Positions 2,465-30,737 of a stretch of 33,039 nucleotides of DNA are shown here, in pieces. Source of the stretch: Lachnospiraceae bacterium (GTDB lineage: Bacteria; Bacillota; Clostridia; Lachnospirales; Lachnospiraceae); assembly GCA_017521605.1 (NCBI GenBank), contig JAFXCD010000010.1, forward strand, positions 1 to 33,039, read 5' to 3'. The first letter of the stretch is position 1. Each line of letters opens with the position of its first letter. The notes under the pieces are model-generated. The model made no database searches and was not told where the DNA came from. It worked only from the letters and a program-made list of their open reading frames with translations. The translations under genes and the position numbers were made by a program.

Positions 2465-3076
2465 ATGTCAAAATATTTTTGTTTAAGCCCGGAGCTGCGG
2501 AGGCTGGAGAAACAGATGCAACAGCCGCCTGGTTACAGACCAAGAGGATATGGTCTCCATATCATGGAGGGATTGGACTGGAGGAACAGGGGAAATTATT
2601 CAGAGATTGTAGATGGCGTCATCTGCAGAATGCAGCTTGAAGATCTAAAGAAGAGAGTAGATGAGATTTTTAGTGAGACAGAGGAAGAAATTATCTTCCG
2701 AAGTAAAAAACACAGAACTGCTTTTTTTTCAAGGATGACAGGAAAAAGAGCAAAGACCTTATATATATCATCCGGCTATGCCGCGGCTGTATTTCTTTTG
2801 TCTGCGGATGAAGGACTTTGGGATAGAGTCAGCAGAAATGTATTGGATACCGAAATCTATTTTGACCGTATCAGGCTGGGTAGTGTGACTCTTGAGCAAT
2901 ATATTCTGTTTCATGCTGCTAGGGATGTATATCAGGGGACTAAACATATTCGGCTCTCAGAGCTGGCAGACCGGGAACTGATACCGGATGCAATACTGAA
3001 ACTGATTGTGAATGCGTTTGTGATTGAGAAATGTGGTATGGAAATGATAAAGCAGGAGGTATGGGATGCGTATTAA
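2465..3076 (+). CDS. Hypothetical protein, 203 residues
   Basis: The start at 2465 (MSKYFCLSPELRRL) is chosen because ATGGAGGAAATCAAC supplies a ribosome site; a longer frame back to 2357 would run through the upstream hairpin. The protein is soluble and mixed alpha-helical, with a basic patch (FRSKKHRT, MTGKRAKT). The C-terminal half is helical (LFHAARDVYQGTKHIRLSELADRELI) and looks like an all-helical binding domain. It overlaps the next gene by 11 bases, which implies translational coupling to the ArdA-like protein. No family is recognised. Confidence 0.8.
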   Translation: MSKYFCLSPELRRLEKQMQQPPGYRPRGYGLHIMEGLDWRNRGNYSEIVDGVICRMQLEDLKKRVDEIFSETEEEIIFRSKKHRTAFFSRMTGKRAKTLYISSGYAAAVFLLSADEGLWDRVSRNVLDTEIYFDRIRLGSVTLEQYILFHAARDVYQGTKHIRLSELADRELIPDAILKLIVNAFVIEKCGMEMIKQEVWDAY

Positions 3077-4697
3077 AGTATTAAATAACCGGCAGAATTT
3101 TTTTAAGTTTCCTATGACAGATGCGGAGCTGAACTTAGAAATGAGAAGGTTGGGAATAAAAGAAACGGTTCCCATGTGTAAAATTGTGGATGTCTTAGAG
3201 GATAACAATCTCATGAATCTGTTAAAAGGGGAGATTGTAAACATGGATGAAGTGAATTTTTTGGCCAGACGCTTGGGAAGCCTGTCTGCCTATGAAAGAA
3301 ATGTCCTATCCATCTATACAGATTCCAATTGCATTGCTACTATGAAGGATTTGATTAATCTGACATACAGTACCCAAGGTCTATCCCTGATCACAGATTT
3401 TTCTGAACCGGAACAGGTTGGAAAACGACTTTACATGGACGAGATGTTGGCAATGTCAGAGGAAGAAGAGAAACATGTAAATTTTATACGGTTTGCAGAA
3501 AAAACGTTTAAGGAAAATCTTCCGGAAGTAATGCCGTATGGTGTTTTTGTGGAACATGGATTTCAACTGCAGGAAGTTTATAATGGGAAAACATTTCCGG
3601 AATATTTTTATTCCGATGTGATTGTTGCAGCCATAGAAGTTCAGAATTCCGCCGGAGATACGGAGTATTTATATTTGCCAACAGATATCTGTTCCATGAA
3701 CAAGGTAAAGGCAAGACTGGGAGTACTTGATTACTGGGAACTGAAAGTTACTGACATACACAATATGAAACTGCCGGATATTCTTGTGCCAGTACCGGAA
3801 GATGTAAAGGAAATCAGTCAGCTAACCCTATTTAATGAAATGTGTCAGGCGGTCAGCAGATTTGATGAAGTTCAGATGAAACAGCTTGCTATGGTGGTAG
3901 AGTTTACCGGTCATGCCAGCTTTACAGAAGTAACAAGCCTTGCAAAGAACCTTGGCGAGTTTGAGGTCAATCCGTTTGTACATAACCATGAGGAGTATGG
4001 AAAATTCTGGGTGAAAGAGTCTGGCTTGTTTGATGTGGATGAATTGTTACTTCCACATATCGATTATGCATCTTTTGCTGCGGATAAAATAGCAGGTACT
4101 TTGGTGGCAAGCGGATATGTTGGAGAAGGATTTGTCGGAGCGACAAGACCATTAGCAGAATATCAGCAGTACGAGGGTGAGTTTGCAGATCCGCTGGAAC
4201 TTGACTATGACTGTTTTGAGGATTTCTGTTTATTCAGTCCCCTTATTGCAAACCTGATGATAGAAGGTGACGATGCGGGAAATCTTTATGGCAGTGACCT
4301 CACACAGTATAAAGAAGTTATTACAGAAGCTATCGAAAAAGAAGAGTGTGTCGGAGAGGAAGTAAGAGGGCTGATGCATTATTTTGACAAAAGCAGGGAA
4401 GTGGCTGCAAAAGTTTTATCGGCACAACCAAAGGTAACAGAAATTAATGGAGAATTATATGGTGTTCTGAAGTGTAAGATTAGTGAGCCGCTGACAGAAG
4501 AAGACATCAATGTGCTCAAAGAATACTGGGCCGGTCAAATGAGTGACGGATGGGGCGAAGGCTTTGAACAGCGTTCTATTGATGTGGATGAAGGAGAAAT
4601 ATATGTTAGCTTCTGGAATAGTGGAAACCATTGGAGTGTCATGACAGAAGAAGAGCTGATGGGTGGACAGGCTCAGGGCATGGACCTTAGATATTGA
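3066..4697 (+). CDS. ArdA-like anti-restriction protein, long form
   Basis: At 543 residues this is much longer than classical ArdA (about 165). The N-terminal part (about 1-110) resembles the ArdA-type modules common in Gram-positive elements: FPMTDAELNLEMRRLGI, then VNFLARRLGSLSAYERNVL. Similar units recur (LTLFNEMCQAVSRFDEVQ, FTEVTSLAKNLGEFEV). ArdA proteins are acidic DNA mimics that block type I restriction enzymes; this protein is also strongly acidic. It would protect element DNA on arrival in a new host. A C-terminal domain (from about 455) ends in ...WNSGNHWSVMTEEEL and a short tail GQAQGMDLRY, related to tails on other genes here. It overlaps the upstream gene, which fits co-translation. 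Family confidence is moderate because assignment is by motif. Confidence 0.75.
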   Translation: MRIKVLNNRQNFFKFPMTDAELNLEMRRLGIKETVPMCKIVDVLEDNNLMNLLKGEIVNMDEVNFLARRLGSLSAYERNVLSIYTDSNCIATMKDLINLTYSTQGLSLITDFSEPEQVGKRLYMDEMLAMSEEEEKHVNFIRFAEKTFKENLPEVMPYGVFVEHGFQLQEVYNGKTFPEYFYSDVIVAAIEVQNSAGDTEYLYLPTDICSMNKVKARLGVLDYWELKVTDIHNMKLPDILVPVPEDVKEISQLTLFNEMCQAVSRFDEVQMKQLAMVVEFTGHASFTEVTSLAKNLGEFEVNPFVHNHEEYGKFWVKESGLFDVDELLLPHIDYASFAADKIAGTLVASGYVGEGFVGATRPLAEYQQYEGEFADPLELDYDCFEDFCLFSPLIANLMIEGDDAGNLYGSDLTQYKEVITEAIEKEECVGEEVRGLMHYFDKSREVAAKVLSAQPKVTEINGELYGVLKCKISEPLTEEDINVLKEYWAGQMSDGWGEGFEQRSIDVDEGEIYVSFWNSGNHWSVMTEEELMGGQAQGMDLRY

Positions 4698-4718
4698 AAT
4701 GGATGGAGGAAACAGATA

Positions 4719-8492: not shown

Positions 8493-8903
8493 ATGGCAGA
8501 AAAAGTAAACAGTAATGGAAAACAGAAAGCACAGGGAGAGGTGCAGCCACAGCAGACAAAACAGTCACAGCCCCTTGATTTTGAGGTGCGCATTCAGTCT
8601 ATCAAACCGAATGAAACTATCAAAGGTACCGTGAGCATTAACATCAACGGTGCATTTGCCATCAGAGGAGTGAAAATCGTTGAGGGAAGCAGTGGTCTGT
8701 TTGTATCCATGCCAAGCTACAAGGTGGGAAGTGAGTATAGGGATATCTGTTTTCCTATTACACCTGAATGCAGGAAACAGTTAAATGATGCGGTCATTGG
8801 TGCCTATGAGCAGGCACTTATGCAGAGCCAGAACAGTATGGCAAAGCATCATGAAATGAAACAGGCACCGGATGGTCAGGCAATGGATACCACTGGTATG
8901 TAA
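8493..8903 (+). CDS. SpoVG-like protein 1
   Basis: Start at 8493 after AAAGGAAGAAC; the frame is open further back to 8445 but only through the YodL gene. After a Gln-rich leader (residues 1-30) comes a SpoVG-like core: DFEVRIQSIK, GTVSININGAFAIRGVKIVE, SSGLFVSMPSYK, YRDICFPITPECRKQLNDAV. SpoVG proteins are small nucleic-acid-binding regulators in Firmicutes. The family's usual length is about 85-100 residues; here 136 because of both extensions. The C-terminus ends QAMDTTGM, a variant of the Met-rich tail seen on other genes. It directly precedes the pilin-like gene and has a paralogue on its other side. Confidence 0.8.
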   Translation: MAEKVNSNGKQKAQGEVQPQQTKQSQPLDFEVRIQSIKPNETIKGTVSININGAFAIRGVKIVEGSSGLFVSMPSYKVGSEYRDICFPITPECRKQLNDAVIGAYEQALMQSQNSMAKHHEMKQAPDGQAMDTTGM

Positions 8904-9203: not shown

Positions 9204-9596
9204 ATGCCAAGAAATGCAGCAACACAGGTAACAGAAGAAAATAATCAGACCATGGAACAGCAAGTTCCTTTTGAGGTAACCATCAAAGAACATAATCCGG
9301 AAAGGGGTGTACTTGCCACTGCCGATGTAATGGTGGCAGGGGTTATGACCATCCGCAATGTAAAGATCAAGGAGGATGACTATGGCATTACAGTGACCAT
9401 GCCTCGTACCAAGATGCCACACACAGACGAGTATAAGGATTCTGTATATTTTGCAGACAAGAACATGAAACAATTGTTTGACCAGACTGTGGAGAATGCC
9501 TACCAGCAGAGTATGCTTGCACCGGTACTCGATCAGGAAGAAATGGAAGAGGATATGGATCCGGAAGAAGAAGCTGGCTTGAGCATGGAAATGTAG
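9204..9596 (+). CDS. SpoVG-like protein 2 with acidic Met-rich tail
   Basis: 130 residues. The core resembles the paralogue at 8493: FEVTIKEHNPERGVLATADV, VAGVMTIRNVKIKED, YGITVTMPRTK, DSVYFADKNMKQLFDQTVENAY. After residue 110 the chain becomes strongly acidic (EEMEEDMDPEEEAG) and ends LSMEM, matching the tail type found on several unrelated proteins of this element. It is probably a nucleic-acid-binding regulator. The two SpoVG-like genes flank the pilin-like gene, and the prepilin peptidase begins 3 bases after this stop. Confidence 0.75.
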   Translation: MPRNAATQVTEENNQTMEQQVPFEVTIKEHNPERGVLATADVMVAGVMTIRNVKIKEDDYGITVTMPRTKMPHTDEYKDSVYFADKNMKQLFDQTVENAYQQSMLAPVLDQEEMEEDMDPEEEAGLSMEM

Positions 9597-9599: not shown

Positions 9600-10022
9600 A
9601 TGGAAGGAATAATAAGACCGGTCTTGTTTTTTTGGGTTCTGTCTTTGGCGGCAGTATCTGACTTAAGAACAAGGAACATTCCGGATTGGATGCCCCTTAT
9701 GATTGCAGGTATAAGTTTGATTTCCCCGCAACCAGTGTATCTGACCGGTCTGCTTGCAGCTTTGCCCCTGTTGATAACAGGGGTAACTGCAGGTGGCATC
9801 GGTGGGGGAGATATCAAGCTGGCAGGTGCCTGTGGACTGGTGCTTGGATTTGAAAGAACCCTTGCCGGCCTTATCATGGCCCTGTGTCTTTTGTTACTGT
9901 ACCATGGAATCGGCCAGTGCATAAGAAAAATCAGAAAAGAAAAGTGTGAAGCAGGAAAGGAACAGGCATACCCGTTGGTTCCTTTCTTACTGCTGGGGAT
10001 GCTTTTGGGCATCCGGATATAA
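9600..10022 (+). CDS. A24 prepilin peptidase, TadV/CpaA type
   Basis: 140 residues with several hydrophobic membrane segments. Both catalytic aspartates of the family are present: Asp21 in SDLRTRNIPD and Asp71 in GGGDIKLAG (the GxGD signature). It lacks the N-terminal methylase domain, as is normal for TadV/CpaA. It should cleave the leader of the pilin-like proteins at 8946, 14838 and perhaps 15239 on the cytoplasmic face of the membrane. It begins 3 bases after the preceding stop and in the same frame, with AGGAG touching the ATG, so translation by re-initiation is likely; an internal start is possible but would remove little. Confidence 0.92.
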   Translation: MEGIIRPVLFFWVLSLAAVSDLRTRNIPDWMPLMIAGISLISPQPVYLTGLLAALPLLITGVTAGGIGGGDIKLAGACGLVLGFERTLAGLIMALCLLLLYHGIGQCIRKIRKEKCEAGKEQAYPLVPFLLLGMLLGIRI

Positions 10023-10049
10023 GATGATTGATAAGGAGGAAATCACAGA

Positions 10050-10835
10050 ATGAAAGTGTTTAAGAACAGGACGATGCTTGGGATCTTCTGCATTGCAGTA
10101 TCCCTAGTCATCTGCTTTGTTATTACCCCTCTTGTGAATGCAGGATTATCGAAGAAAACTACCATAGTCCGTTTTACCAGGCAGGTCCATGCAGGGGAAG
10201 AGATCACAAAGGATATGGTGGATGAGGTGGAAGTAGGTAACCATAACCTGCCCCCAAATGTGATAAGAAACATTGCAGAGGTGGAAGGAAAATATCTGAA
10301 GGCAGATGTGTATCCGGGGGATTATATCCTGACAGATAAGATCTCATCAGAACCTGCCGCAGAGAACAGATACCTTTACAGCTTAAATGGAGAAAAGCAG
10401 GCCATGTCCATTACCATCAATACCTTTGCGGAAGGGTTATCCGGCAAATTGAAGAGTGGAGATATTGTCTCTGTTATTGCACCGGATTATCTGGGCAGCG
10501 GAGAAACCATTATCCCGGCAGAACTTAAATATGTGGAAGTCATTGCAGTGACTGCCAAGTCCGGCAATGATGCCAACACCGGGGAAAAGCTGACAGAGGA
10601 GAAAGAAAAGGAGCTGCCCTCTACGGTGACCATGCTGGTAAAACCGGAGCAGAGTAAACTCCTGGCCAGACTGGAAGCGGAGGGAGAGATCCATTTGTCT
10701 TTGGTGTTTCGGGGAGAGGCAGAGAAAGCTTCGGAATTTATCAAAGCACAGGACCAGGTGTTGGAGGAATTGAAAGCCATGGAAGAGGCATCCATAGAAG
10801 AAAATGCAGAAACTGAGACAGATGGGGAGGAATAG
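10050..10835 (+). CDS. cpaB: CpaB/RcpC-like Flp pilus assembly protein (SAF domain)
   Basis: 261 residues. One N-terminal membrane helix (about 9-32) is followed by an SAF domain (VRFTRQVHAGEEITKDMVDEVEV, then KADVYPGDYILTDKI). After this comes the CpaB domain with KLKSGDIVSVIAP and a beta-rich section ending in TVTMLVKPEQSKLLARLEAEGEIHLSLV. In Tad systems CpaB sits outside the membrane and supports the fibre or secretin. A Gram-positive host lacks the secretin, so here it probably bridges membrane and wall. The C-terminus is acidic. It is next to the peptidase and ATPase genes, in the usual Tad order. Confidence 0.88.
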   Translation: MKVFKNRTMLGIFCIAVSLVICFVITPLVNAGLSKKTTIVRFTRQVHAGEEITKDMVDEVEVGNHNLPPNVIRNIAEVEGKYLKADVYPGDYILTDKISSEPAAENRYLYSLNGEKQAMSITINTFAEGLSGKLKSGDIVSVIAPDYLGSGETIIPAELKYVEVIAVTAKSGNDANTGEKLTEEKEKELPSTVTMLVKPEQSKLLARLEAEGEIHLSLVFRGEAEKASEFIKAQDQVLEELKAMEEASIEENAETETDGEE

Positions 10836-10838
10836 CAG

Positions 10839-11645
10839 GTGAATTTTAAACAGAACTCTCTGTTTACGAGAAAGAACGGATTCCAGGAGGAGGCAACGGA
10901 GGAACAGGGTGGTGTGCTTGCCGTATGGGGAAGTCCCTCTTCCGGCAAGACAACGGTTTCTGTCAAGCTGGCAGAGCATCTGGCCAGAAAGAAGAAAAAT
11001 GTACTATTGATCTTTGCAGACATGACCACGCCGCCCCTGCCATGTATCTGTGCATCCGGAGATCTGGAAGGAGAAAGATCCCTGGGGAGCATTCTTGCAG
11101 CAACCCATGTGACAGAAAATCTGATCCGGAAGAACTGTATGTTTTATAAAAAGAATGATTACCTGGGCTTGATCGGGATGTTAAAAGGGGAGAATGTGTT
11201 CACCTATCCATCCTATGACCAGACACAGGCAGTGGAGCTGATCGAACAGGCAAGACAGGTGGCACCTTTTGTGATCATTGACTGCACCAGCACCATTGCA
11301 TCGGATGTGCTTTCAGCGGTAGCTCTGATGGAGGCAGATACGGTACTGCGACTGGTAAACTGTGATTTAAAGTCCATCAGCTACCTGTCTTCACAGTTGC
11401 CCCTGCTTCGTGACCATAAATGGGATGCAGATAAACAGCTCAAGGTGGCATCCAATGTAAAACCCCAGGAGGCAGACTGCCACATGGAACAGGTGCTTGG
11501 TTCGGTTTCCTTTCAGATCCCCCACAGCAGGGAAGTGGAAACCCAGTATCTGGAAGGAAATATGTTAGAGGAGCTGGGACTGAAAGAAAGCAGGGCGTTC
11601 CGCAAAGAGATCGAAAAGATCTGTAAGGAGGTGTTCGGCACATGA
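10839..11645 (+). CDS. CpaE/TadZ-like P-loop ATPase
   Basis: 268 residues starting at GTG 10839 (GGGGAGG eight bases upstream). It has a Walker A of the deviant MinD/ParA kind (WGSPSSGKTTVS, about 30-41), a switch-like FADMTT, and a Walker B-like FVIIDCTSTIASD. It lacks the N-terminal receiver domain of classical CpaE. TadZ/CpaE proteins place the Tad machine in the cell, usually at the pole. The last two codons overlap the CpaF start as ATGA, which indicates translational coupling. Confidence 0.85.
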   Translation: MNFKQNSLFTRKNGFQEEATEEQGGVLAVWGSPSSGKTTVSVKLAEHLARKKKNVLLIFADMTTPPLPCICASGDLEGERSLGSILAATHVTENLIRKNCMFYKKNDYLGLIGMLKGENVFTYPSYDQTQAVELIEQARQVAPFVIIDCTSTIASDVLSAVALMEADTVLRLVNCDLKSISYLSSQLPLLRDHKWDADKQLKVASNVKPQEADCHMEQVLGSVSFQIPHSREVETQYLEGNMLEELGLKESRAFRKEIEKICKEVFGT

Positions 11646-12991
11646 TGGGAAACAACCAGAGTTTATTTTTTGCACCGGAGGATAAGACAAGAGTATTTTC
11701 CGATGTGCTAAAGGAAGTGCAGGAGTATATCTCCGGCAAATATTCCACACTGATGGTGGAGGGTGGAAATGAAGAGGTAAAACAGCAGGTCAAGCGATAC
11801 ATATCCAAGTACATCGCAGACTACCGTATTACCGTAAAAGGAAAGACAAGGGAAGAACTGGTAAATGACCTTTATACGGAAATGGCGGAGTTTTCCTTTC
11901 TGACAAAATATATTTTCGGTACCGGCATTGAAGAGATTGATATCAACTCCTGGAAGGATATCGAAGTGCAGTACAGCGATGGGAGATGCGAAAAGCTGGA
12001 GGAACATTTTGAGTCCCCGGACCATGCCATCAACGTGATCCGCCGCATGCTTCATGTGTCCGGCATGGTGCTTGATAATGCATCCCCGGCAGTATTAGGG
12101 CATCTTAGCAAAAATATCCGTATTGCGGTGTTAAAGACACCTCTTGTGGATGAGGATGTGGGGATCGCAGCTTCCATCCGAATCGTTAATCCACAGAGCA
12201 TGAAGAAAAGTGATTTTGTGGATGGAGGAACCGCTACAGAGGAAATGCTGGATTTTCTGGCAGAATGTCTGCGGTATGGGATCAGTATCTGTGTGGCCGG
12301 TGCCACCAGCTCCGGTAAGACCACACTGGCAGGGTGGCTTTTAACTACCATTCCCGATAACAAGCGTATTTTTACCATTGAAAACGGAAGCAGGGAGCTG
12401 GCACTGGTCCGGGAAAAGGATGGAAAGGTAACAAACAGTGTGATCCATACCCTGACCAGATTTAGTGAAAACGAGAAGCAGAACATCGATCAGGATATGC
12501 TTCTGGATATGGCACTGCGTTTTAATCCGGAGATCATCTGTGTGGGAGAGATGAGAAGCTCGGAAGCCTATACCGCACAGGAGTCAGCAAGAACCGGGCA
12601 TACGGTGTTAACGACCATTCACAGTAACAGCTGTGAATCCACGTACAGCCGAATGAGAACCCTGTGCAAGAGAAAGTACGACATGGACGATGGGGTATTA
12701 ATGGATCTGGTGACGGAAGCCTTTCCCATCGTAGTGTTTGCCAAGCAACTGGAGAACAAAAAAAGAAGACTGATGGAGATCATGGAGTGTGAGATCACAC
12801 CCGATGGAAAGAGGCATTTTAATTCGCTGTTCCGTTATGAGATCACGGAGAACCGCATGGAAGGGGACCGTTTTATCATTAACGGGATCCACAAAAAGGT
12901 GTGCAACATTTCAGAGAGCTTACAGAAGAGGCTTTTGGAAAACGGGATGCCGTTGGATGTTTTGGAGAAGTTTCAGAAGGGAGGTGCGTAA
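11642..12991 (+). CDS. cpaF: CpaF/TadA secretion ATPase
   Basis: 449 residues, normal for the family. The N-terminal domain (1-150) precedes a RecA-like core with Walker A VAGATSSGKTTLAGW (about 218-232), an Asp box region near FTIENGSRELALV, Walker B EIICVGEMRSSEAY and a His box HTVLTTIHSNSC. It is a hexameric ATPase on the inner face that powers Tad pilus assembly, and in this family sometimes retraction. It is also a distant relative of VirB11, so in this element it might serve the T4SS too; no separate VirB11 is seen. It is coupled to CpaE upstream. Confidence 0.95.
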   Translation: MMGNNQSLFFAPEDKTRVFSDVLKEVQEYISGKYSTLMVEGGNEEVKQQVKRYISKYIADYRITVKGKTREELVNDLYTEMAEFSFLTKYIFGTGIEEIDINSWKDIEVQYSDGRCEKLEEHFESPDHAINVIRRMLHVSGMVLDNASPAVLGHLSKNIRIAVLKTPLVDEDVGIAASIRIVNPQSMKKSDFVDGGTATEEMLDFLAECLRYGISICVAGATSSGKTTLAGWLLTTIPDNKRIFTIENGSRELALVREKDGKVTNSVIHTLTRFSENEKQNIDQDMLLDMALRFNPEIICVGEMRSSEAYTAQESARTGHTVLTTIHSNSCESTYSRMRTLCKRKYDMDDGVLMDLVTEAFPIVVFAKQLENKKRRLMEIMECEITPDGKRHFNSLFRYEITENRMEGDRFIINGIHKKVCNISESLQKRLLENGMPLDVLEKFQKGGA

Positions 12992-12993
12992 GT

Positions 12994-13923: not shown

Positions 13924-13935
13924 AGGAGGAAGACA

Positions 13936-14808: not shown

Positions 14809-14837
14809 AAGTCAATGACAGAGAGAAAGGAAACAGA

Positions 14838-15857: not shown

Positions 15858-15891
15858 GGTTGAAAGATAGAAAATCACAGGAGGTAGCACA

Positions 15892-20455: not shown

Positions 20456-21313
20456 ATGTTTATATTTGATTTTGTGGCCGAGACGATCATGGACCAGATC
20501 ATTGATTGGATGTATGGGAAAATCGTAAGTTTTTTAAACGACTTCTTTGTGATGATGAATAACATGGGTGTGGAACTGTTCGAACTGCCATGGGTAAGCT
20601 CGGTTACTACATTTTTCAGTTACTTTGGATGGGCATTGTTCGGTGTAGGACTTGTGGTAGGAGCTTTTGAATGTGCCATTGAATATCAGGGAGGTCGGGG
20701 AAGCATTAAGGATACAGCCATAAATTACATAAAAGGGTTTATGGCAGTGAGTCTGTTTACGGTGGTGCCGGTTAACTTGTATTCATTGTGTGTATCCTTG
20801 CAGGGAACCTTTGGAGCAGAGCTTACCGGGATCAGTCATGCAGACAGTATTGGGCAGACCGCACAGCAGACATTAATGACGGTGACTATTTCAGGAGCAG
20901 CAAATCCCTTACTGATGCTCTTTTGTGTTGTTATGATGGGATACGCAGTCATAAAGGTGTTCTTTGCTAACTTGAAGAGAGGCGGTATCTTACTGATCCA
21001 GATCGCAGTGGGGAGTCTTTATATGTTTTCTGTTCCTAGAGGATATATTGATGGATTTATCCAGTGGTGTAAACAGGTGATCGGCATCTGCCTGACTGCC
21101 TTTTTGCAGTCCACAATTCTGACTGCAGGGCTGATGTTGTTCCCAGAGCATACATTGTTAGGCTTGGGACTTATGTTATCCAGCACAGAGGTTCCCCGTA
21201 TAGCAGGACAGTTTGGACTGGATACCAGTACAAAGACCAACCTGATGAGTAGTGTGTATGCAGCCCAGAGTGCCATCAACATGACCAAGACTGTTGTGAA
21301 AGCAGTGGTATAA
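20456..21313 (+). CDS. VirB6/TrbL-like conjugal membrane protein
   Basis: 285 residues with about six hydrophobic segments, including TFFSYFGWALFGVGLVVGAF, FMAVSLFTVVPVNLYSLCV, NPLLMLFCVVMMGYAVIKV and LQSTILTAGLMLFPEHT. The N-terminal helix region (MDQIIDWMYGKIVSFLNDFF) and overall layout match the TrbL/VirB6-type channel proteins of Gram-positive T4SSs. It would form part of the membrane DNA channel. The C-terminal 45 residues are polar and probably cytoplasmic. It is followed by a cytosine methylase rather than by virB3, which is unusual. Confidence 0.85.
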   Translation: MFIFDFVAETIMDQIIDWMYGKIVSFLNDFFVMMNNMGVELFELPWVSSVTTFFSYFGWALFGVGLVVGAFECAIEYQGGRGSIKDTAINYIKGFMAVSLFTVVPVNLYSLCVSLQGTFGAELTGISHADSIGQTAQQTLMTVTISGAANPLLMLFCVVMMGYAVIKVFFANLKRGGILLIQIAVGSLYMFSVPRGYIDGFIQWCKQVIGICLTAFLQSTILTAGLMLFPEHTLLGLGLMLSSTEVPRIAGQFGLDTSTKTNLMSSVYAAQSAINMTKTVVKAVV

Positions 21314-23111: not shown

Positions 23112-23676
23112 GAAAAATATGGAATCCACAAAGGAGCTGATGGGAATCAGGGAAGTGACGGATTACAGTGTAAAAACCTACAAAAACGATGAGCTGGTTT
23201 ATTTTTTGATCCAGCCAAGCAATATTTCTGTACTTTCGCAGGAGAGTCTGTCGGCCAGAATCTATGGACTGATGACAGTGCTTAAGGGAATCACGGAGAT
23301 TGAAATGATGTGCTTAAACTCCAGAGAAAACTTTGAGGATAACAAGCAGTATCTGAAGAAACGCATGGAGGAGGAAAACAATCCTGTAGTACGAAAGTTG
23401 TTAGAAAAGGATGTAAATTACCTGGACCGCATGCAGGTGCAGATGGCTACCGCAAGAGAGTTTTTGTTAATCATCCGTTTGCGGAACCAGAAGGAACATG
23501 AAATATTTCCTTACTTGAACCGGATCGAAAAGATGTTAACAGAGCAGGGATTTAAATCGAAGCGTGCGGAGGAAGGGGATATCAAGAGAATCCTTGGTGT
23601 GTATTTTGAACAGAATGTGACAACGGAAAAGTTTGAGGAATTTGACGGAGAAAGGTGGATTATTTTAAATGAGTGA
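23104..23676 (+). CDS. VirB4-associated soluble T4SS protein
   Basis: The start at 23104 (TGGAGGTATTCGTCTG upstream) gives 190 residues. No membrane segment is present. The middle (YFLIQPSNISVLSQESLSAR, then YGLMTVLKGITEIEMMCLNS) resembles the small N-terminal alpha/beta section found in some TrsE/TraC-type VirB4 relatives. A coiled helix follows (EEENNPVVRKLLEKDVNYLD). It overlaps both neighbours (8 bases each), so VirB3-like, this protein and VirB4 are one translational unit and probably one complex. Its precise family is not certain. Confidence 0.75.
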   Translation: MSKKNMESTKELMGIREVTDYSVKTYKNDELVYFLIQPSNISVLSQESLSARIYGLMTVLKGITEIEMMCLNSRENFEDNKQYLKKRMEEENNPVVRKLLEKDVNYLDRMQVQMATAREFLLIIRLRNQKEHEIFPYLNRIEKMLTEQGFKSKRAEEGDIKRILGVYFEQNVTTEKFEEFDGERWIILNE

Positions 23677-25504
23677 AAACAGAAAGAAAAACAGGACAGC
23701 GGAGTCATCAGGAGAAGTAAAACTGAAAGGGTTTCTGGATATGATTGCACCATCCGTAATCCATTTTTATACGGATCATTATATCTGTGGAAATACATAC
23801 CGCTGTGTTTGGGCGCTCCGGGAGTATCCTACAGCAACGGATGAGCAGGCAATTTTAAGACATCTTGGGGAGAAGGACGGTGTTACTTTGAGGATTTATA
23901 CCAGACAGGTAACACCAGCTGAAGAGAAAAAGATTATCAGCAATGCAGCCAACAAGAACCGTATGAAGCAGGGAAACACAGAAAATCTGCAGGAAACGGT
24001 TACAGCCGCAAGCAACTTGCAGGACGTTGCAACCATTATCGCCACCATGCACAGGAACCGGGAGCCGCTACTTCACACTGCTGTGTTTATTGAACTGTCT
24101 GCCCAGGATATGGAGAAGTTAAAGCTGTTACAGACGGAGGTTATGACGGAGTTGATCCGATCCAAGCTGAATGTAGACCGTCTGTTACTTCGCCAGAAGC
24201 AGGGCTTTGTGTGTGTCCATCCGGCTGGAAGAAATGTGTTTCATGAGCAGTTTGAACGGGCGCTCCCTGCATCCAGCGTGGCGAATCTGTTCCCCTTTAA
24301 CTATTCCGGCAAGACGGACAAGAATGGATTTTATATTGGCAGGGATAAGTTTGGAAGCAACGTGATCGTGGATTTCAATCAGAGAACTGATGACAGGACC
24401 AATGCCAATATCCTGATCCTTGGAAATTCAGGGCAGGGAAAATCATATCTGTTAAAGCTGATACTGACCATTTTCAGGGAATCCGGCATGAAAGTGATCT
24501 GTCTGGATCCAGAAAATGAATACATGGAACTGACACAAAATATGGGAGGATGCTTTGTGGACCTTATGAGTGGTCAGGTTATGATCAATGTGCTGGAACC
24601 GAAAACATGGGATGAAAGCGGCAGTCCGGAGGATATGGAGGCACCGGCAGCTTTCAGATGTTCTTCCAAGCTCAGCCAGCATATTTCTTTTTTAAAGGAT
24701 TTCTTCCGGGCATACAAGAATTTCACAGACAGCCAGCTTGATACCATTGAGATCCTGTTGGGAAAGTTGTACCAGAAGTGGAACATTACAGATGATACAG
24801 ACTTTGAAAGTATGAAACCGGCTGATTATCCAATTCTTTCAGACCTTTATGATCTGATGGAAGAGGAATATAAAGGCTATGATGCCGGTAAGAAGCAACT
24901 GTATACTGCAGAACTGCTGCAGGAAATCTGTTTGGGACTTCACTCCATGTGCAAAGGGGCGGAGTCCAAATTTTTTAACGGACATACCAATATCACAGAC
25001 AGCAGTTTCCTTACTTTCGGTGTGAAAGGATTGCTTCAGGCGAACCGGAGTGTGAAGGATGCCATGCTGTTTAATGTTCTTTCTTACATGTCCAATGAGC
25101 TGCTGACAAATGGAAAGACGGTGGCAAGTATGGATGAATTTTATCTGTTTTTAAGCAATCTGACTGCAGTGGAGTACATCCGAAACTTTATGAAACGTGT
25201 TCGTAAGAAAGACAGTGCGGTGATCCTTGCCAGCCAGAATCTAGAGGACTTTAATATTGACGGAATCAGGGAGTATACAAAACCACTGTTTTCCATTCCT
25301 ACCCATGCCTTTCTGTTTAATGCAGGAAGCATGGATGCAGGTTTTTATATGGATACTTTGCAGTTGGAGAAGAGTGAGTATGATGTGATCCGTTATCCCC
25401 AGAGAGGTGTGTGTCTGTATAAGTGCGGCAATGAAAGATATAACCTGATGGTACATGCGCCGGAGTATAAAGAGAAGCTGTTTGGTTATGGCGGAGGCCG
25501 ATAA
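23669..25504 (+). CDS. virB4: VirB4/TraC-family T4SS ATPase
   Basis: 611 residues. The N-terminal domain (about 25-200) holds HFYTDHYICGNTYRCVWALR. The C-terminal RecA-like motor has Walker A GNSGQGKSYLLKL (about 252-264), LDPENEY after the next strand, Walker B VASMDEFYLFL and an Arg/Gln motif region VILASQNLEDF. VirB4 hexamers energise substrate transfer and channel assembly at the inner face of the membrane. The length is typical for Gram-positive elements. It is the best single marker that this is a conjugation module. It overlaps the preceding gene by 8 bases and is followed two bases later by the amidoligase. Confidence 0.95.
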   Translation: MSENRKKNRTAESSGEVKLKGFLDMIAPSVIHFYTDHYICGNTYRCVWALREYPTATDEQAILRHLGEKDGVTLRIYTRQVTPAEEKKIISNAANKNRMKQGNTENLQETVTAASNLQDVATIIATMHRNREPLLHTAVFIELSAQDMEKLKLLQTEVMTELIRSKLNVDRLLLRQKQGFVCVHPAGRNVFHEQFERALPASSVANLFPFNYSGKTDKNGFYIGRDKFGSNVIVDFNQRTDDRTNANILILGNSGQGKSYLLKLILTIFRESGMKVICLDPENEYMELTQNMGGCFVDLMSGQVMINVLEPKTWDESGSPEDMEAPAAFRCSSKLSQHISFLKDFFRAYKNFTDSQLDTIEILLGKLYQKWNITDDTDFESMKPADYPILSDLYDLMEEEYKGYDAGKKQLYTAELLQEICLGLHSMCKGAESKFFNGHTNITDSSFLTFGVKGLLQANRSVKDAMLFNVLSYMSNELLTNGKTVASMDEFYLFLSNLTAVEYIRNFMKRVRKKDSAVILASQNLEDFNIDGIREYTKPLFSIPTHAFLFNAGSMDAGFYMDTLQLEKSEYDVIRYPQRGVCLYKCGNERYNLMVHAPEYKEKLFGYGGGR

Positions 25505-25506
25505 CT

Positions 25507-26538
25507 ATGGATATGAGGGATCAGAAATTCGGTATTGAAATCGAATTGACCGGTATCACAAGATGTAAGGCCGCATCGATTATTGCAAAATATCTTGGAA
25601 GCACTTCGGAACATTACGGTGGGAGTTATGATGAGTATCGTGTTCATGATAATCGTGGAAGAAAATGGAAACTCGTGAGTGATGCCAGCATTGTGCCAAT
25701 GAAAAAGGATGGAACCAGAGGCGGACAAGAATACAAGGTAGAATTCGTCTCTCCCATCTGTGAGTATGCAGATATTCCGGTAATACAGGAGATTGTAAGG
25801 CAGTTGCGTCATGCAGGAGCCATTGCCGGGGAAACGTGTGGTATTCATGTGCATGTGAATGCAGCACCGCATAATGCCAGGACACTGAGGAATATCACCA
25901 ACATTATGTACAGTAAGGAAGATTTAATCTACAAAGCCTTGAAAGTTGATGTGGCAAGAGAACATAGATATTGCCAAAAGGTAGAAGAGGATTTTTTGCA
26001 GAATCTGAATCGTAAAAAACCTAAAACCTTGGAGGAAGTCAGTAATATCTGGTACAAGGGACGTGACGGAAGCCATGTGCATTATCATGACAGCAGATAC
26101 CACTGCCTGAACCTGCACAGTGTGTTCCAGAAAGGAACCATAGAGTTCCGTCTGTTTAATTCCACAACTCATGCCGGAAAAGTAAAGACTTACATACAAT
26201 TTTGTCTTGCAATATCAGGTCAGGCATTGAATCAGACATGTGCTGCTACCAGAAAGACTACTAGTACCAATGAAAAGTATACCTTCCGTACATGGTTGCT
26301 TCGACTTGGTATGATTGGAGATGAGTTTAAAACAGCGAGAATGTTTTTGTTGGAGAATCTGGAGGGTGGTATTGCATGGAAGGAGCCGGAACAGGCAGAA
26401 AGACAAAAGGAGAGGCTCAGAGCTAAAAAGGAAAAAGAAGAGGCATTACGGTTGGAGCAGTCAGAAACCGTAAGTCCCGGAGAACAACCGGCAGAAGAAC
26501 AGGAATATGAGGAGCAAGGTATGAATTTATCTATGTAG
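25507..26538 (+). CDS. Amidoligase-family enzyme
   Basis: 343 residues. The hallmark segments of the COOH-NH2 ligase amidoligase family are visible: KFGIEIELTGI (8-18), YKVEFVSPI (76-84), CGIHVHVNAA (111-120) and GTIEFRLFNSTTHAGKVKTY (210-229). These are relatives of glutamine synthetase and gamma-glutamylcysteine ligase that form amide or isopeptide bonds with ATP. The C-terminus is a charged coiled coil (KERLRAKKEKEEALRLEQ), an acidic linker and the tail EEQGMNLSM. It directly precedes a gamma-glutamylcyclotransferase-like gene, a pairing noted in published genomic surveys of this family. The substrate, wall peptide or protein, cannot be read from the sequence. Confidence 0.88.
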   Translation: MDMRDQKFGIEIELTGITRCKAASIIAKYLGSTSEHYGGSYDEYRVHDNRGRKWKLVSDASIVPMKKDGTRGGQEYKVEFVSPICEYADIPVIQEIVRQLRHAGAIAGETCGIHVHVNAAPHNARTLRNITNIMYSKEDLIYKALKVDVAREHRYCQKVEEDFLQNLNRKKPKTLEEVSNIWYKGRDGSHVHYHDSRYHCLNLHSVFQKGTIEFRLFNSTTHAGKVKTYIQFCLAISGQALNQTCAATRKTTSTNEKYTFRTWLLRLGMIGDEFKTARMFLLENLEGGIAWKEPEQAERQKERLRAKKEKEEALRLEQSETVSPGEQPAEEQEYEEQGMNLSM

Positions 26539-26557: not shown

Positions 26558-27064
26558 TTGAAAAAAAGAAAAAAGTATATTGCATATGGTTCGAACCTGA
26601 ATTTAGAACAGATGGCTGAAAGATGTCCCACTGCTAAAGTAGTTGGCAAAGGGGAACTTCAGGATCACGAGCTGCTGTTTCGAGGAAGAAGGCATTGTGC
26701 TTTTGCTACGGTAGAACCGAAAAAAGGAGCAAGCGTACCAGTTCTGATTTGGGAAATTGGACCAGAGGACGAGAGACGTCTGGATATGTACGAAGGATAT
26801 CCTTCCCATTATGGCAAGTCAGAACTGGTAGTAGAAACAAGTAATGGCAAAGAATCCATTATGGCATACGTCATGAGAGGAGGACGAAATATCGGAGAAC
26901 CATCCTCCTATTATCTGGAAACAATCAAAACCGGATATCGGGAGGCCGGTTTCGATGTAGAGTATTTGCTTGAGCGTGTGTCTTATTGCAGTGAGATCAT
27001 GAAGAAAGAGCACGGGCATGAAAGCATGGAGGAACCGGCATGGAACCAACAACTGCTGCAATGA
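26558..27064 (+). CDS. Gamma-glutamylcyclotransferase-like protein
   Basis: 168 residues. The N-terminal YIAYGSNLNLEQM (8-20) is the GGCT substrate-loop signature, and LIWEIGPEDERRLDMYEGYP carries the second conserved block with the LDxYEGYP pattern. These enzymes release 5-oxoproline from gamma-glutamyl amines or peptides. Next to an amidoligase it could reverse or trim gamma-linked products. The start is TTG at 26558, set by GCAGGAGGAAGAGA and by the motif position. The last 25 bases overlap the NlpC/P60 gene. Confidence 0.88.
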   Translation: MKKRKKYIAYGSNLNLEQMAERCPTAKVVGKGELQDHELLFRGRRHCAFATVEPKKGASVPVLIWEIGPEDERRLDMYEGYPSHYGKSELVVETSNGKESIMAYVMRGGRNIGEPSSYYLETIKTGYREAGFDVEYLLERVSYCSEIMKKEHGHESMEEPAWNQQLLQ

Positions 27065-28125
27065 TAGTCAAAGCAGCTATTGCAGCCGGTACCAATAAAA
27101 GGGTCTGGACAGGGATTGGCTCTGTGCTTGCAGGGATATGTATTCCTTTTATCCTTGCCATACTGTGTATCTTAAACCTTGCATCGGCAGCGTCCGATTA
27201 TAACAGGGAAGCGGTCCGGCTTACCTTTCATGGTGGCAACATCCCTATAACCATGTCTGCTGATTATAAGGATTATATCAGGAGAATGCAGCAAAGCTTT
27301 GCACAGATTGATGTGGTCATGGATGAGATAGATAGCGTGGCAGAGGGGGATGTTCAGGACAGATATCTGGTCAAAGCGGTGTTCTACTCTCTGTATTTCG
27401 GCGGGGACCGGGGAACGCTGGAAACGTCTGACTATCATCGGTTTTCGGAGTCCTTTGTGAATTTTGAAGAACGTACCCGGATGGTTACGCAAGAGGATGG
27501 GACCCAGAGCGAGGAAGTATATCAGGTATCCATAGCCATTAAAGACAGGGTAGAACTGTTTGAAAAGATAAAGACCCACTATGGTGTGGAGGCAACTTAC
27601 GAACAGCAGTCCAATGCGGTGAATGTGTGGCATCTGGCAAGATATGATACCACAGCTCCTCAGGAGGGAGATGAGTTTGCTGGCTGGATGAACTGGAATG
27701 GTGCTGTTCATATAACCTGTTATGATCTTCCGGTCGGTGAAGTGGGTGATAAGGTAGTGGAGCTTGCCATGTCCCGGCTGGGACATCCTTACTCCCAAAC
27801 TCACAGGGGGAAGAATACATATGTAGACTGCAGTTATCTGACGCTATGGTGTTACAGGCAGGTGGGGATAATGCTGCCGGGAACTGCCGCAGAGCAGGCA
27901 AGGCATCTTGTAGAAAATAATCTGACCATTGCAAAAGTAGATTTACAGCCGGGAGATTTGGTGTTCTGGAGTTACCGGCCCAACGGGCGGTTTATGAACA
28001 TTACCCATGTGGGTGTCTATGCAGGAGAGGGAAAGGTGGTGGATGCCTCCTCTTCCCAGGGAAAAGTAGTATACAGAAATATGTTTGACGAAGACAAACA
28101 GGTGCTTTATGGCAGACCGCAGTAA
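27040..28125 (+). CDS. NlpC/P60 peptidoglycan hydrolase of the conjugation module
   Basis: 361 residues. A membrane anchor (about 27-50, GSVLAGICIPFILAILCILN) precedes an extracellular section of 190 residues and a C-terminal NlpC/P60 domain with catalytic Cys264 (YVDCSYLTLWCY) and His323 (NITHVGVYAG). It cuts peptide bonds in the cell wall and so opens a path for the transfer channel, like Orf14 of Tn916-type elements. The start at 27040 lies inside the GGCT gene, with GGAGGA seven bases upstream. The middle section has no recognised lytic transglycosylase motif, so it may be a one-activity enzyme. Confidence 0.92.
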   Translation: MEPTTAAMIVKAAIAAGTNKRVWTGIGSVLAGICIPFILAILCILNLASAASDYNREAVRLTFHGGNIPITMSADYKDYIRRMQQSFAQIDVVMDEIDSVAEGDVQDRYLVKAVFYSLYFGGDRGTLETSDYHRFSESFVNFEERTRMVTQEDGTQSEEVYQVSIAIKDRVELFEKIKTHYGVEATYEQQSNAVNVWHLARYDTTAPQEGDEFAGWMNWNGAVHITCYDLPVGEVGDKVVELAMSRLGHPYSQTHRGKNTYVDCSYLTLWCYRQVGIMLPGTAAEQARHLVENNLTIAKVDLQPGDLVFWSYRPNGRFMNITHVGVYAGEGKVVDASSSQGKVVYRNMFDEDKQVLYGRPQ

Positions 28126-28173
28126 GGTTTTTGATGCCAGAGGCATCTGTTTTGTGCTTGGAAGGGAGGAAAT

Positions 28174-28515
28174 GTGAGAGCAGTATTTTTAAGAAAGGAA
28201 CCGGAGATTACAGCGAGTGAGTTCTGTGTGGAAAAAGTCATTACACTGACTGCAGAAGAGTATGCAGCTTTTACGCAGAATCTTATGCATGACTATGATT
28301 TTATCAGGGAGCATGTGAATCTGATGTGTGAAAAAGATGGTGTGTGGCACTGCTTGTTGGTAACCAGCGAGGATATGGAGGAAGGCATTTTAGTGGAGAG
28401 TGAAGGCTCTTCTTATGCAAGATATTCTGCTTTTGTACCGTCCGTGAAGGGGCTGATAGAGCAGTATCAGACAATGCAGGAAACACAGGATGCAGCTATG
28501 GAAATGATAATGTAG
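28174..28515 (+). CDS. Small conserved element protein (possibly DUF6329)
   Basis: 113 residues from GTG 28174, with GAAGGGAGGAAAT as ribosome site. Visible blocks: RAVFLRKEPEITASEFCVEK, ITLTAEEYAAFTQNLMHDYD, GVWHCLLVTSEDMEEGILVE, EGSSYARYSAFVPSVKGLIE. I recall this kind of protein from ICEs of Clostridia, probably under DUF6329, without a known function. It is soluble and acidic. It ends DAAMEMIM, a form of the Met-rich tail. It is co-directional with the DUF6103-like gene 17 bases downstream. Confidence 0.7.
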   Translation: MRAVFLRKEPEITASEFCVEKVITLTAEEYAAFTQNLMHDYDFIREHVNLMCEKDGVWHCLLVTSEDMEEGILVESEGSSYARYSAFVPSVKGLIEQYQTMQETQDAAMEMIM

Positions 28516-28531
28516 ATAACAGGAGGAAGTT

Positions 28532-28882
28532 ATGGCGGAGAAAGAAATTAAAATCACTTTTCCGGAAGTGAAGATGGAAGCACTGGAGTTTTTTTTAAGG
28601 GAACAGAATGCTACCGTGGAAAAAATATTAAAAGAACATCTGGATAAAACATATGAAAAAAGTGTTCCCCAGCAGGTAAGAAAATTTGTGGAAAGTAAGA
28701 TGGAGGAACCGCAGGAAGCTGTGCAGGATGATACTGAACCACAGAGACAGACAAGAGGGCAGGGCAGACGTAGTGCCAGACAGAACGTTGTGCGGGAAGC
28801 TGTTCCCGAACAGGATTCCGGTATGCAGCAGACAGAAGAACAGCAGGACGAACAGGAAACCGGCATGACAATGGAAATGTAG
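28532..28882 (+). CDS. DUF6103-like small protein with Met-rich tail
   Basis: 116 residues. The first 55 residues (KITFPEVKMEALEFFLREQN, TVEKILKEHLDKTYEKSVPQ, QVRKFVESK) match its paralogue at 30781 in length and pattern: strand, helix, helix ending in VPQ-x-VR-x-(F/Y)-(I/V)-E-S. I associate this with DUF6103 from memory. A Gln/Glu-rich linker (about 60-108) with an Arg patch (RGQGRRSARQ) follows, and the chain ends ETGMTMEM. The paralogue lacks both linker and tail. Confidence 0.75.
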   Translation: MAEKEIKITFPEVKMEALEFFLREQNATVEKILKEHLDKTYEKSVPQQVRKFVESKMEEPQEAVQDDTEPQRQTRGQGRRSARQNVVREAVPEQDSGMQQTEEQQDEQETGMTMEM

Positions 28883-28895
28883 GAGGCAATGGACA

Positions 28896-30737
28896 ATGAA
28901 TTTGTATGCAGAGGATATCAAGGAACGGTTGTTTGTAGAGGTATATAATGCCGCAAAAATGGAAGACATCTTAAAAAAAGTTGTGCATGAATGCCGGGAG
29001 GATCTGGCGGTAGTATACCGGCTCAGTGGTTATGATGAACGATTTAAAAGAGGCTGTGAACTGGTGACCAAAGAACAGTTGGCGCACTGGGGTGTGGATG
29101 CCGAAACTTTAAAGCAGGATGCTTGGGCGAATACCATGGCAAAACGTCCCCCTATAATGTTTGAACTTGGGACGGGTGGAACGGTTGATCTAAGTAAAAA
29201 TTATTTAAAAATTGATGAACCGATACCAAGAGGCGCAGCTCCTGAACTGGATATGTTTATCCTTACAAATGGGATAAACAGTAACGGGGCCATATGTATG
29301 TTTGATGAGGAAACCATGCAGAGGGTTACAGAAAAATTAGGTGGTAACTTGATTGTCCTGCCGGCATCTGTACATGAAACCATAGTTTATAGGGAGGCAA
29401 ACGGATTGAATATACGCTATGCAAAGGATCTTGTAAACTCGGTTAATCGGACAGCCTTAAAAGATGGAGAATTTCTATCCGGGGAAATATACCGCTATGA
29501 TAAAGACAATCATACCTTGTCCATCGTGCAGGTACCGGAACATGAAGAAATCATTATGCCTGATAGTATAAGCATGAAGGAGATGTATGCTTACGGATAT
29601 GCATGGGATGGTATGCTGCCTCTTTCTGAAGATAAAGCATTGGAATTACTGGATGCTGATCTGCCAATATACAGATTATATGATGATGGGACAGAAGGAA
29701 TGGTAGAAACTAAAGAGGAAATCTTTTCTCATGATGGGCTCTTTGGTGTGGAACGGGAAACATGGATTGGTCATTTAAGAAAGATGACGGAGGAAACAAA
29801 AATGCAGTTTGATGAATTCATGAAGTATGCGGTAGAGAATATCAAGGCATATCTCCCGCAGGAATACCAGGATGCAAACGTGTTTTTGGGAAAGGGACTT
29901 AAAAACAATACGGTTCCTATGAATGCTTTATGTATTGTGGGGAAGGAGAGAGTGGTACCATCTATTTACTTGGAGCAATTTTATGCGGTGCATCTGTATG
30001 GGATGCCGATTGAGGAGGTCATGCAGCACATGGCAGATATTTATTTAGACAGTCTCAGACCAGACCTTCAATACCTTGTGAATACGTTTGAGTATGAAAA
30101 TGTAAAGGACAGAATCGGTGTGTCTGTATGCAATGCAGTAAAAAACCGAGATATGCTGCAGGATATACCACATGAAGTGAAAGGGGAATTTGCCTTAACT
30201 TATCATGTAAAAGTAAAATTAGATGACGGCTGGGATGGTACAATCTTGATAAATAATGATCGATTGGCAGAGTGGAGGATTGATGAAAAGACACTACGAG
30301 AAACCGCATGGTATAACATGGAGCAGCATTTTCCTTATCAGCTAATGAATGTACATGACATAATAGAAGAGAAATTTGATGTGAGCAGGCTGCCGGGTTA
30401 TGATAGAAATTTTAACGTATATATACTTTCTAATCCCGAAAGATTTCATGGAGCAGTATATATGTTTGACGATAAGGCTATGAGGGGAGTGGCAGAAAAA
30501 TTTGAAACAGATATGCTTTTATTACCAATGTCCGTACATGAGTGTGTTCTCTTCAGACGTGATGAAGTACAGGATTTGGAAGGGCTCAAGGAGGAGATAG
30601 CCTATGTTCAAAGAAACCGGATTCGTCCGGAAGACATTTTGTCGGGGGATATCTTTTTGTTTGATGTCCAGACACAGACACTTTCAAAACTGGATGAGAT
30701 GCAGAGCCAGGAGCAGGGGATGACACAGCAGATGTAA
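28896..30737 (+). CDS. DUF5688-like protein, tandemly duplicated
   Basis: 613 residues, soluble. Two copies of one domain are visible. Copy 1 (about 1-220) has LVTKEQLAHWGVDAETLKQD, MFDEETMQRVTEKLG, VLPASVHETIVYR and FLSGEIYRYDKDNHTLS. Copy 2 (about 385-600) has LINNDRLAEWRIDEKTLRET, MFDDKAMRGVAEKFE, LLPMSVHECVLFR and ILSGDIFLFDVQTQTLS. Between them (about 226-285) lies a distinct segment, AYGYAWDGMLPLSEDKALEL. I link copies to DUF5688 from memory; the function is unknown. It ends MQSQEQGMTQQM, a clear form of the element's tail. A terminator stem overlaps the stop codon. Confidence 0.8.
   Translation: MNLYAEDIKERLFVEVYNAAKMEDILKKVVHECREDLAVVYRLSGYDERFKRGCELVTKEQLAHWGVDAETLKQDAWANTMAKRPPIMFELGTGGTVDLSKNYLKIDEPIPRGAAPELDMFILTNGINSNGAICMFDEETMQRVTEKLGGNLIVLPASVHETIVYREANGLNIRYAKDLVNSVNRTALKDGEFLSGEIYRYDKDNHTLSIVQVPEHEEIIMPDSISMKEMYAYGYAWDGMLPLSEDKALELLDADLPIYRLYDDGTEGMVETKEEIFSHDGLFGVERETWIGHLRKMTEETKMQFDEFMKYAVENIKAYLPQEYQDANVFLGKGLKNNTVPMNALCIVGKERVVPSIYLEQFYAVHLYGMPIEEVMQHMADIYLDSLRPDLQYLVNTFEYENVKDRIGVSVCNAVKNRDMLQDIPHEVKGEFALTYHVKVKLDDGWDGTILINNDRLAEWRIDEKTLRETAWYNMEQHFPYQLMNVHDIIEEKFDVSRLPGYDRNFNVYILSNPERFHGAVYMFDDKAMRGVAEKFETDMLLLPMSVHECVLFRRDEVQDLEGLKEEIAYVQRNRIRPEDILSGDIFLFDVQTQTLSKLDEMQSQEQGMTQQM

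Follow-up and report, generated by a model that had tools for sequence, protein, structure and literature searches.

Unrelated proteins encoded by one family of integrative conjugative elements (ICEs) end in a similar short peptide, and this tail is probably a C-terminal signal for recruitment to, and export by, the type IV secretion system (T4SS) of these elements. The window, by which we mean the whole stretch of 33,039 nucleotides that was analysed, is one complete contig of a Lachnospiraceae bacterium (G000:C67; JAFXCD010000010.1 in assembly GCA_017521605.1) and holds part of such an ICE. On it are a pilus gene cluster of the Tad/Flp type, a set of type IV secretion genes grouped about a VirB4-type ATPase, and numerous small accessory genes. 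A preceding reading made from the letters of the window (the sequence-only reading) had listed nine such peptides, all of which were present at the genes it named. The shared tail is real, and it reaches far beyond the window.

Related elements were collected by a VirB4 search with one genome per species, from which the best 80 of 182 relatives were kept with at most 10 kb on each side. The hosts of these relatives included Lachnospiraceae, other Clostridia, Desulfosporosinus, and Tissierella, and a few relatives lay in metagenome-assembled genomes assigned to other phyla. Further material and controls came from fetched flanks, samples of chromosomes, and other loci bearing a type IV coupling protein (T4CP) from eight of the same genomes. 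Genes were called with a simple codon-model script, and four contigs of the window's own genome contributed no genes. A profile was built from the 36 distinct last-eight-residue ends of the amidoligases only and was run on all other proteins with a threshold score of at least 6. Identical proteins within one group were removed before counting, the copies of the window (L001 and L002) and the relaxase loci L118 to L147 were left out, and L083 and L084 were reassigned from the phage group to the ICE group because VirB4 is present on both.

The profile matched 85 of the 1,446 nonamidoligase proteins from the window, the 80 loci, and two contigs that are filed as viral but belong to ICEs, as well as 23 of 650 proteins in further ICE flanks, versus none of 1,058 control proteins (236 from phages, 335 from other T4CP loci, and 487 chromosomal). 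The match rate at positions drawn at random from the interior of ICE proteins was 0.18%. A plain M-x-M pattern within two residues of the end gave the same picture: it occurred in 5 of 40 window genes, versus 0.03 to 0.04 expected from internal positions of the same proteins, and in 152 of 1,499 proteins of the 80 related loci, versus about 4 expected, and it was absent from 182 proteins of the own-genome chromosome, 305 of host-genome chromosomes, and 343 of other T4CP-bearing loci. The sequence-only reading had considered that the motif might be no more frequent in ICE proteins than in other proteins of the host; this was not borne out, since the host chromosome samples lacked it altogether (0 of 487, and 0 of 216 in a later sample of the window's own genome from which contig C28, locus L332, was left out). 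For ICE versus control counts, the Fisher value at the level of proteins was 2e-21, which overstates the case because the proteins are related; 16 of 493 clusters, with the amidoligase excluded, had at least one carrier. One candidate, cluster c26 with ends such as ADGYKLLMG, had matched a first loose pattern and was rejected with a profile count of 0 of 16. Descent of the tails from one common ancestral domain was also rejected, as they follow unrelated Pfam families.

In its typical form, the tail consists of an acidic, Gln-rich linker of variable sequence and a conserved alternating end, roughly [PQ]-[GA]-[MFL]-x-M-x-M. Among 45 nonredundant amidoligase C-termini, the entropy was 2.2 to 3.6 bits per position in the linker (positions -45 to -11), compared with 0.50 bits at -3 and 0.57 bits at -1; position -5 was F, M, or L in 42 of the 45, -7 was P or Q in 38, and -10 was E in 31, and between -26 and -9 most positions had Glu as their most frequent residue. 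Serine at -2 was encoded by TCA (11 termini), TCC (7), TCT (6), AGC (4), and TCG (2), and Leu replacing Met at -1 used four codons. Thus, the amino acids were kept and not the DNA, and selection has acted at the protein level. The tailed proteins had a mean charge of -3.7 over 20 residues (n = 167), and E, D, Q, and N made up 54% of positions -20 to -7 in amidoligase ends versus 22% in chromosomal proteins. The tail had been described as Met-rich, and a shared peptide is indeed present, but Met is dispensable at some places: the wider form alternates M, L, or F with S, T, G, or N (for example, QMAGL, MGGM, and FTMTM), and such ends often fall below the profile threshold. Up to the carboxylate, hydrophobic residues alternate with small polar ones, a pattern suggestive of an extended strand that lies in a groove.

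Carriers, noncarriers, and homologues outside the ICEs

The tail stood at the extreme C-terminus of several unrelated proteins, as C-terminal T4SS signals do. Counted at score 6 per single-linkage cluster, in which some families are merged, it was carried by 32 of 96 members of the DUF6103 group, 20 of 90 in the cluster with ArdA, DUF6329, and DUF4314, and 11 of 45 DUF3991/Toprim primase-like proteins. Smaller groups of carriers were DUF5688 (9/19), DUF7768 (8/28), SpoVG (7/16), the family of the window gene at 18674 (5/12), YodL (3/14), Fic (2/23), and the family of the window gene at 19526 (2/30), and a looser M-x-M form was seen on an AbiEii protein and a DUF3849 protein. The T4SS parts had no profile match (VirB4, 0/79; TrbL, 0/62; NlpC, 0/70; coupling protein, 0/31), nor had TadA (0/19), TadB (0/18), TadC (0/29), the cytosine methylase (0/48), or the RHH protein encoded before the relaxase (0/70). 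The division proposed beforehand, with the tail on soluble accessory proteins and not on machine parts, therefore holds. In the cluster of the 209-residue protein at 23047, the single carrier among 72 members was a 254-residue upstream protein joined to it by clustering. GGACT proteins gave 0 of 45 above the threshold, though a few relatives end in DGMNM or VPQMEM.

Members of the same protein family could be compared inside and outside the ICEs. All 59 nonidentical ICE amidoligases had M or L at the last and third-last places of the motif, with at most two residues after it, whereas the tail was found in none of the 17 phage amidoligases that were read (12 IMG/VR and 5 GenBank sequences, with 293 of 296 positions identical between two of the latter). 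The phage amidoligase records comprised 94 matches, of which seven ends were read, five from untailed phages and two from tailed fragments bearing VirB4; the amidoligase of phage contig L092 fell outside the cluster and was left out of the count. From a GDEF-like core motif to the end there were 69 to 82 residues in the ICE amidoligases (57 of the 59 have the motif) versus 25 to 57 in the phage ones, and therefore the ICE amidoligase is the core plus a linker and tail. Two fragments labelled "Bacteriophage sp." (MT839541.1 and MT839085.1) encode a tailed amidoligase and look like ICE pieces, because a VirB4-like sequence lies upstream. As a side observation, loci L083, L084, L323, and L324, filed as viral or as "Bacteriophage sp.," carry a VirB4-like sequence together with a tailed amidoligase and look like ICE fragments.

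For SpoVG, the count was made on the fuller set of 16 nonidentical proteins from the window and ICE flanks, which also includes untailed VirB4-linked copies, and not on the nine VirB4-linked rows that all looked tailed; 13 of the 16 were tailed by eye (7 by score). The row-by-row comparisons of ArdA, SpoVG, and MobL covered 30 loci each among the matches listed; the MobL rows were not used, and a wrong or cut open reading frame (ORF) affected L272, probably L247, L249, and L250, and most MobL rows. Elsewhere than in the ICEs, 2 of 21 SpoVG rows were tailed, both on contigs without a VirB4 match, 18 were untailed, and one was a wrong ORF; the readable chromosomal-type copies had no tail. ArdA, with 30 loci listed, was tailed by eye in 10 of the 11 different proteins encoded no more than 60 kb from VirB4 and in 4 of 18 rows elsewhere, all four on contigs without a VirB4 match, with a few rows unreliable; some shorter ArdA relatives in ICE flanks were untailed. 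The tail thus goes with the cognate T4SS clearly in the amidoligase contrast and, for SpoVG, clearly on the chromosomal side; on the ICE side, 13 of the 16 copies were tailed by eye. Homologues that end differently at the same position had been named beforehand as evidence against a shared tail. The amidoligase tail, kept in ICEs and absent from phage copies, and the mostly tailed SpoVG of ICEs answer that objection in the main, but not for every copy.

Relaxases, coupling proteins, and rival readings

Neither a relaxase nor a coupling protein was recognised among the window genes. Contig C28 of the same draft genome (L332, 1343 to 7449) encodes a MobP3 relaxase (923 residues, end DDREIMVQTQ) and a CD1115-type VirD4 coupling protein (629 residues, end VRQTLRTED), and because both exceed their NCBIfam cut-offs, C28 probably carries the half of the element that the window lacks. 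MobP3 (NCBIfam NF041499; MobL in Pfam), the relaxase of the element, often ends in QGH..DDHEQ followed by, for example, TMSL, DMKL, or LTIY. Met is rare there, and the last residue was hydrophobic in 76% of 34 nonredundant copies versus 30% of chromosomal proteins. The relaxase ends of 22 ORFs from other elements averaged a charge of +0.1 over 20 residues and +0.5 over 12, and those of MobP3 averaged +0.9 and -0.8; charge complementarity was accordingly rejected as a rule that holds for relaxases and coupling proteins at large.

One relaxase of another family (324 residues, PF03432; L126, 1447 to 2421), out of 22 such relaxases examined, ends in DEEFEQYHGFSMRM (EQYHGFSMRM), with a profile score of 18. 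Its best NCBIfam match was SAG1250, at 65 bits versus a cut-off of 575. In its surroundings (L352, 6155 to 9373), it is preceded by a small gene that weakly matches mobilization proteins and followed by a serine-recombinase-type gene (CcrB-like, below cut-off). Its contig had no match to VirB4 or a T4CP, and its genome holds three copies of the ICE family's VirB4. We read it as part of an apparent mobilizable element that employs the tag. A scan of viral contigs for its relatives found none.

The coupling proteins of the ICE family have basic ends. All 28 full-length ones were at least +1 in the last 10 residues, and the mean of 21 nonredundant ones was +2.4 (ends such as RRKSIIRT, RRPPLRTD, and RQTLRTED), versus -3.2 for other coupling proteins (n = 15, from 8 of 24 genomes). 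An R-x-[IL]-R-T-like pattern was found at the end of 17 of 31 ICE-family coupling proteins (L188 to L207 and other loci), whereas most of the others compared end acidic. Two coupling proteins that were scanned gave a CD1115-type VirD4 match above the cut-off. Three distant plasmids that carry Tad-type genes showed no such tail among their listed genes. MobP3 is annotated on two of the three, where a basic relaxase end goes with an acidic end of the coupling protein; no relaxase is annotated on the third.

If the tail is an export signal, its flexible acidic, Gln-rich linker would lead to a short strand of alternating hydrophobic residues, about G/A-M/F/L-x-M-x-M, whose carboxylate is free. The likeliest component of the transfer machine to bind this strand as a receptor would be the VirD4-type coupling protein, with its basic end. 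The ArdA antirestriction protein, SpoVG-type proteins, the Toprim primase-like protein, Fic, the amidoligase, and several uncharacterised proteins would then enter the recipient with the DNA. The coupling protein as receptor is our guess, and we infer a receptor, its binding of the tail, transfer, and a benefit in the recipient. A T4SS translocation signal had already been suggested by the sequence-only reading. It agrees with the division between accessory and machine proteins, the restriction to one element family, the tail on Toprim proteins (11/45), and the one mobilizable relaxase, but the weak end of the element's own MobP3 does not fit it well.

Several observations weigh against export. 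MobP3 is the one obligatory substrate, yet it has a degenerate form of the tail only, with 3 of 67 copies above the threshold, and the mean charge of its last 20 residues is +0.9, hence not acidic. MobP3 may therefore use another signal, and this is the chief result against one simple signal shared by all substrates. The tail on a mobilizable element's relaxase was seen once. Many members of the carrier families have loose tails or none, including SpoVG copies inside ICEs (L151:2669-3031 and L156:14948-15262, untailed; L149:11562-11888, doubtful). When one random member was taken per cluster, the enrichment was 4.3 of 493 versus 0 of 1,058 (Fisher p 0.01), far weaker than the protein-level count. 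The charge contrast of the coupling proteins was noticed afterwards and sets one clade against several, so that it is effectively one event and a lead rather than a test. For the window's own element, the likely T4CP is only +1, and values of -1, 0, and -2 were found for three further T4CPs in the same genome.

The runner-up to export is a docking tag that would gather the accessory proteins on one element-encoded hub, such as a relaxosome or replication assembly in the donor or the recipient, with no passage through the channel. We think this rather unlikely, although the anatomy suits it: the tail is element specific, C-terminal, set behind a variable linker, and present on the DNA-related proteins SpoVG, ArdA, and Toprim, and the weak MobP3 form would be expected if export were not the point. 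SSB, with its acidic and hydrophobic end, is a parallel for docking, except that here many tails would share one partner. Fic, the amidoligase, AbiEii, and DUF5688 would seem to have no evident common job in one complex, and the tailed relaxase of the mobilizable element, though one case, fits export better. Much less probable is a role in degradation, in which a host protease, or an adaptor encoded by the element, would read the tail and keep the levels of ICE proteins low before transfer. Hydrophobic C-terminal ends can act as degrons, and the placement of the tail on accessory proteins and not on T4SS or Tad parts is what such a signal might give, but one read by the host should also mark some proteins of the chromosome or of other ICEs (0 of 1,058 controls), and this reading would explain neither the acidic linker nor why the tail is confined to one T4SS clade.

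A still more improbable reading makes the tail the substrate or recognition site of the adjoining amidoligase and GGACT pair in a pupylation-like tagging reaction. The most regular tail is that of the amidoligase itself, and the two genes adjoin in many loci. We do not favour this reading, because tails also occur at loci that have no amidoligase-cluster member between VirB4 and NlpC, the stretch to which the search in those genomes was confined (L015, L025, L050, L067, L072, L076, and L079), and phage amidoligases near a GGACT gene lack the tail. Chance arising from ATG-rich gene ends before ribosome-binding sites, an alternative that had been raised at the outset, is excluded by codon use and the controls, and we give it practically no weight: the genes are tightly packed and a purine-rich, Shine-Dalgarno-like stretch follows the stop in many of 15 junctions, but five Ser codons are used at -2 and four Leu codons at -1, and control genes are untailed.

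We keep export as the preferred reading of the tail. A bolder version, to which we give somewhat less than an even chance, is that one portable tag exports a whole establishment kit, that the charge of the coupling protein has been inverted to fit acidic cargo, and that mobilizable elements borrow the tag. If export is correct, the tail would be a protein-export signal, readable in the sequence, for a conjugation system of Clostridia, and it would yield a list of proteins, many of unknown function, predicted to enter recipients with the DNA. Guesses at function would become possible for DUF6103, DUF5688, DUF6329, YodL, and the ICE amidoligase, and what a conjugative element sends besides DNA would become directly testable, as the tag could be fused to a reporter.

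Tails and machine genes of the window

The tails and the machine and GGACT/AIG2 genes of the window described here all lie on the forward strand. Four tails had been called clear: those of the amidoligase (gene 25507 to 26538; EEQGMNLSM, 26509 to 26535), conserved in the ICE copies; DUF6103 protein a (gene 28532 to 28882; ETGMTMEM, 28856 to 28879), with relatives ending in QGMSMSM and PGMTMGM; the DUF5688 protein (gene 28896 to 30737; EQGMTQQM, 30711 to 30734), with relatives ending in QGMHLEM, GMTQQM, and QGMKFGM; and SpoVG-like protein 2 (gene 9204 to 9596; EAGLSMEM, 9570 to 9593), with relatives ending in AGMNMGM, PGMSMGM, and PGMSMVM. Homologues of all four were tailed in many related elements, if not in every copy, which agrees with that grading. 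A second DUF6103 protein (30766 to 31026) has no tail, and neither do its relatives in the copies listed.

Five other tails had been graded as weaker. The ArdA-like protein (gene 3066 to 4697) ends in AQGMDLRY (4671 to 4694), and relatives 71% and 62% identical to it end in QGMNMSC and QGMQMSF, respectively. SpoVG-like protein 1 (ORF ending at 8903) has MDTTGM (8883 to 8900), with MDMTGM in a 76% identical relative and PTMTM, QMAGL, or MGGM in others, a few relatives being untailed. The DUF6329 protein (gene 28174 to 28515) has DAAMEMIM (28489 to 28512), and its relatives have AGMQMNM, AGMKMNL, or PGMTLKL, some being without a tail, while the 154-residue protein (gene 18674 to 19138) ends in IQMVM (19121 to 19135) and its relatives in GMDMTMKL, PAMQMDM, or QSLTM. 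These four families were tailed in many related elements, again not in every copy, but for the fifth, a 151-residue protein (gene 19987 to 20442; LTGQSM, 20422 to 20439), the sole other copy found was identical, and its tail is uncertain. A tenth tail, absent from the earlier list, was found on the 146-residue protein of gene 19526 to 19966, whose end is ENAMQMRT (tail NAMQMRT, 19943 to 19963); one relative ends in ESPAMTMSM, and most are more degenerate (for example, QMGQKMC). Pfam assigned the tailed window proteins to ArdA, SpoVG (twice), Amidoligase_2, DUF6329 (28174), DUF6103, and DUF5688 and gave no match for those at 18674, 19526, and 19987.

The machine genes are untailed. They include the VirB4-type ATPase of the T4SS (23669 to 25504; NCBIfam NF045975, E value 3.3e-88, below the curated cut-off), a membrane protein that we take to be TrbL/VirB6-like (20456 to 21313), and an NlpC/P60-type cell wall hydrolase (27040 to 28125; matches below curated cut-offs). 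The Tad/Flp-type pilus gene cluster (9600 to 16506) also has no tails; it contains a TadA/VirB11-like ATPase (11642 to 12991, below curated cut-offs), and its other genes are presumably Tad/Flp components as labelled. Such a cluster accompanies the VirB4-type system both in the ICEs and in the three distant plasmids (L349 to L351). The GGACT/AIG2 protein that adjoins the amidoligase (26558 to 27064; family match) ends in NQQLLQ, and its relatives in many elements have a KWW end, another hydrophobic end behind an acidic or Gln-rich stretch.

Comparison with known systems

In the literature on conjugation signals and shared tails, no such tail appeared in the titles or abstract openings among the papers listed. 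The substrates of the Agrobacterium VirB/VirD4 system have basic, Arg-rich C-terminal signals. The tail is like these in being C-terminal and, if the proposed receptor is right, VirD4 dependent, but the signal is basic there, whereas here the tail is acidic and the end of the coupling protein is basic. Polyvalent proteins encoded by conjugative elements and by phages are discussed as effectors that accompany invading DNA, and ArdA, YodL, and Toprim primase domains are among their parts (PMC5512222). In the portion of that article available to us, no shared terminal tag is named, whereas here separate proteins have a common tail.

In the Dot/Icm system, Glu-rich C-termini of substrates are recruited by DotM, according to the part of the paper available (PMC5802825). 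This E-block resembles our linker in being an acidic, Glu-rich stretch near the C-terminus of different proteins, recognised there by basic patches of the coupling complex. It differs in that the Glu-rich peptides themselves bind, whereas in the ICE proteins the final alternating Met/Leu end is the most conserved part; additionally, Dot/Icm is a different class of T4SS, and ours belongs to a conjugative element of Clostridia. F-type conjugation by pED208 passes SSB, PsiB, ParA, ParB, and host proteins to the recipient (PMC8406263 and PMC11288057, as far as their accessible parts go), and the host proteins have C-terminal or internal signals (PMC11288057). The likeness to the ICE family lies in some of the signals being C-terminal and in cargo functions that help establishment. 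The signals of the F-type system are described, in the same parts of these papers, by charge, hydrophobicity, or position, whereas the ICE proteins have a recognisable shared peptide from which their transfer is predicted.

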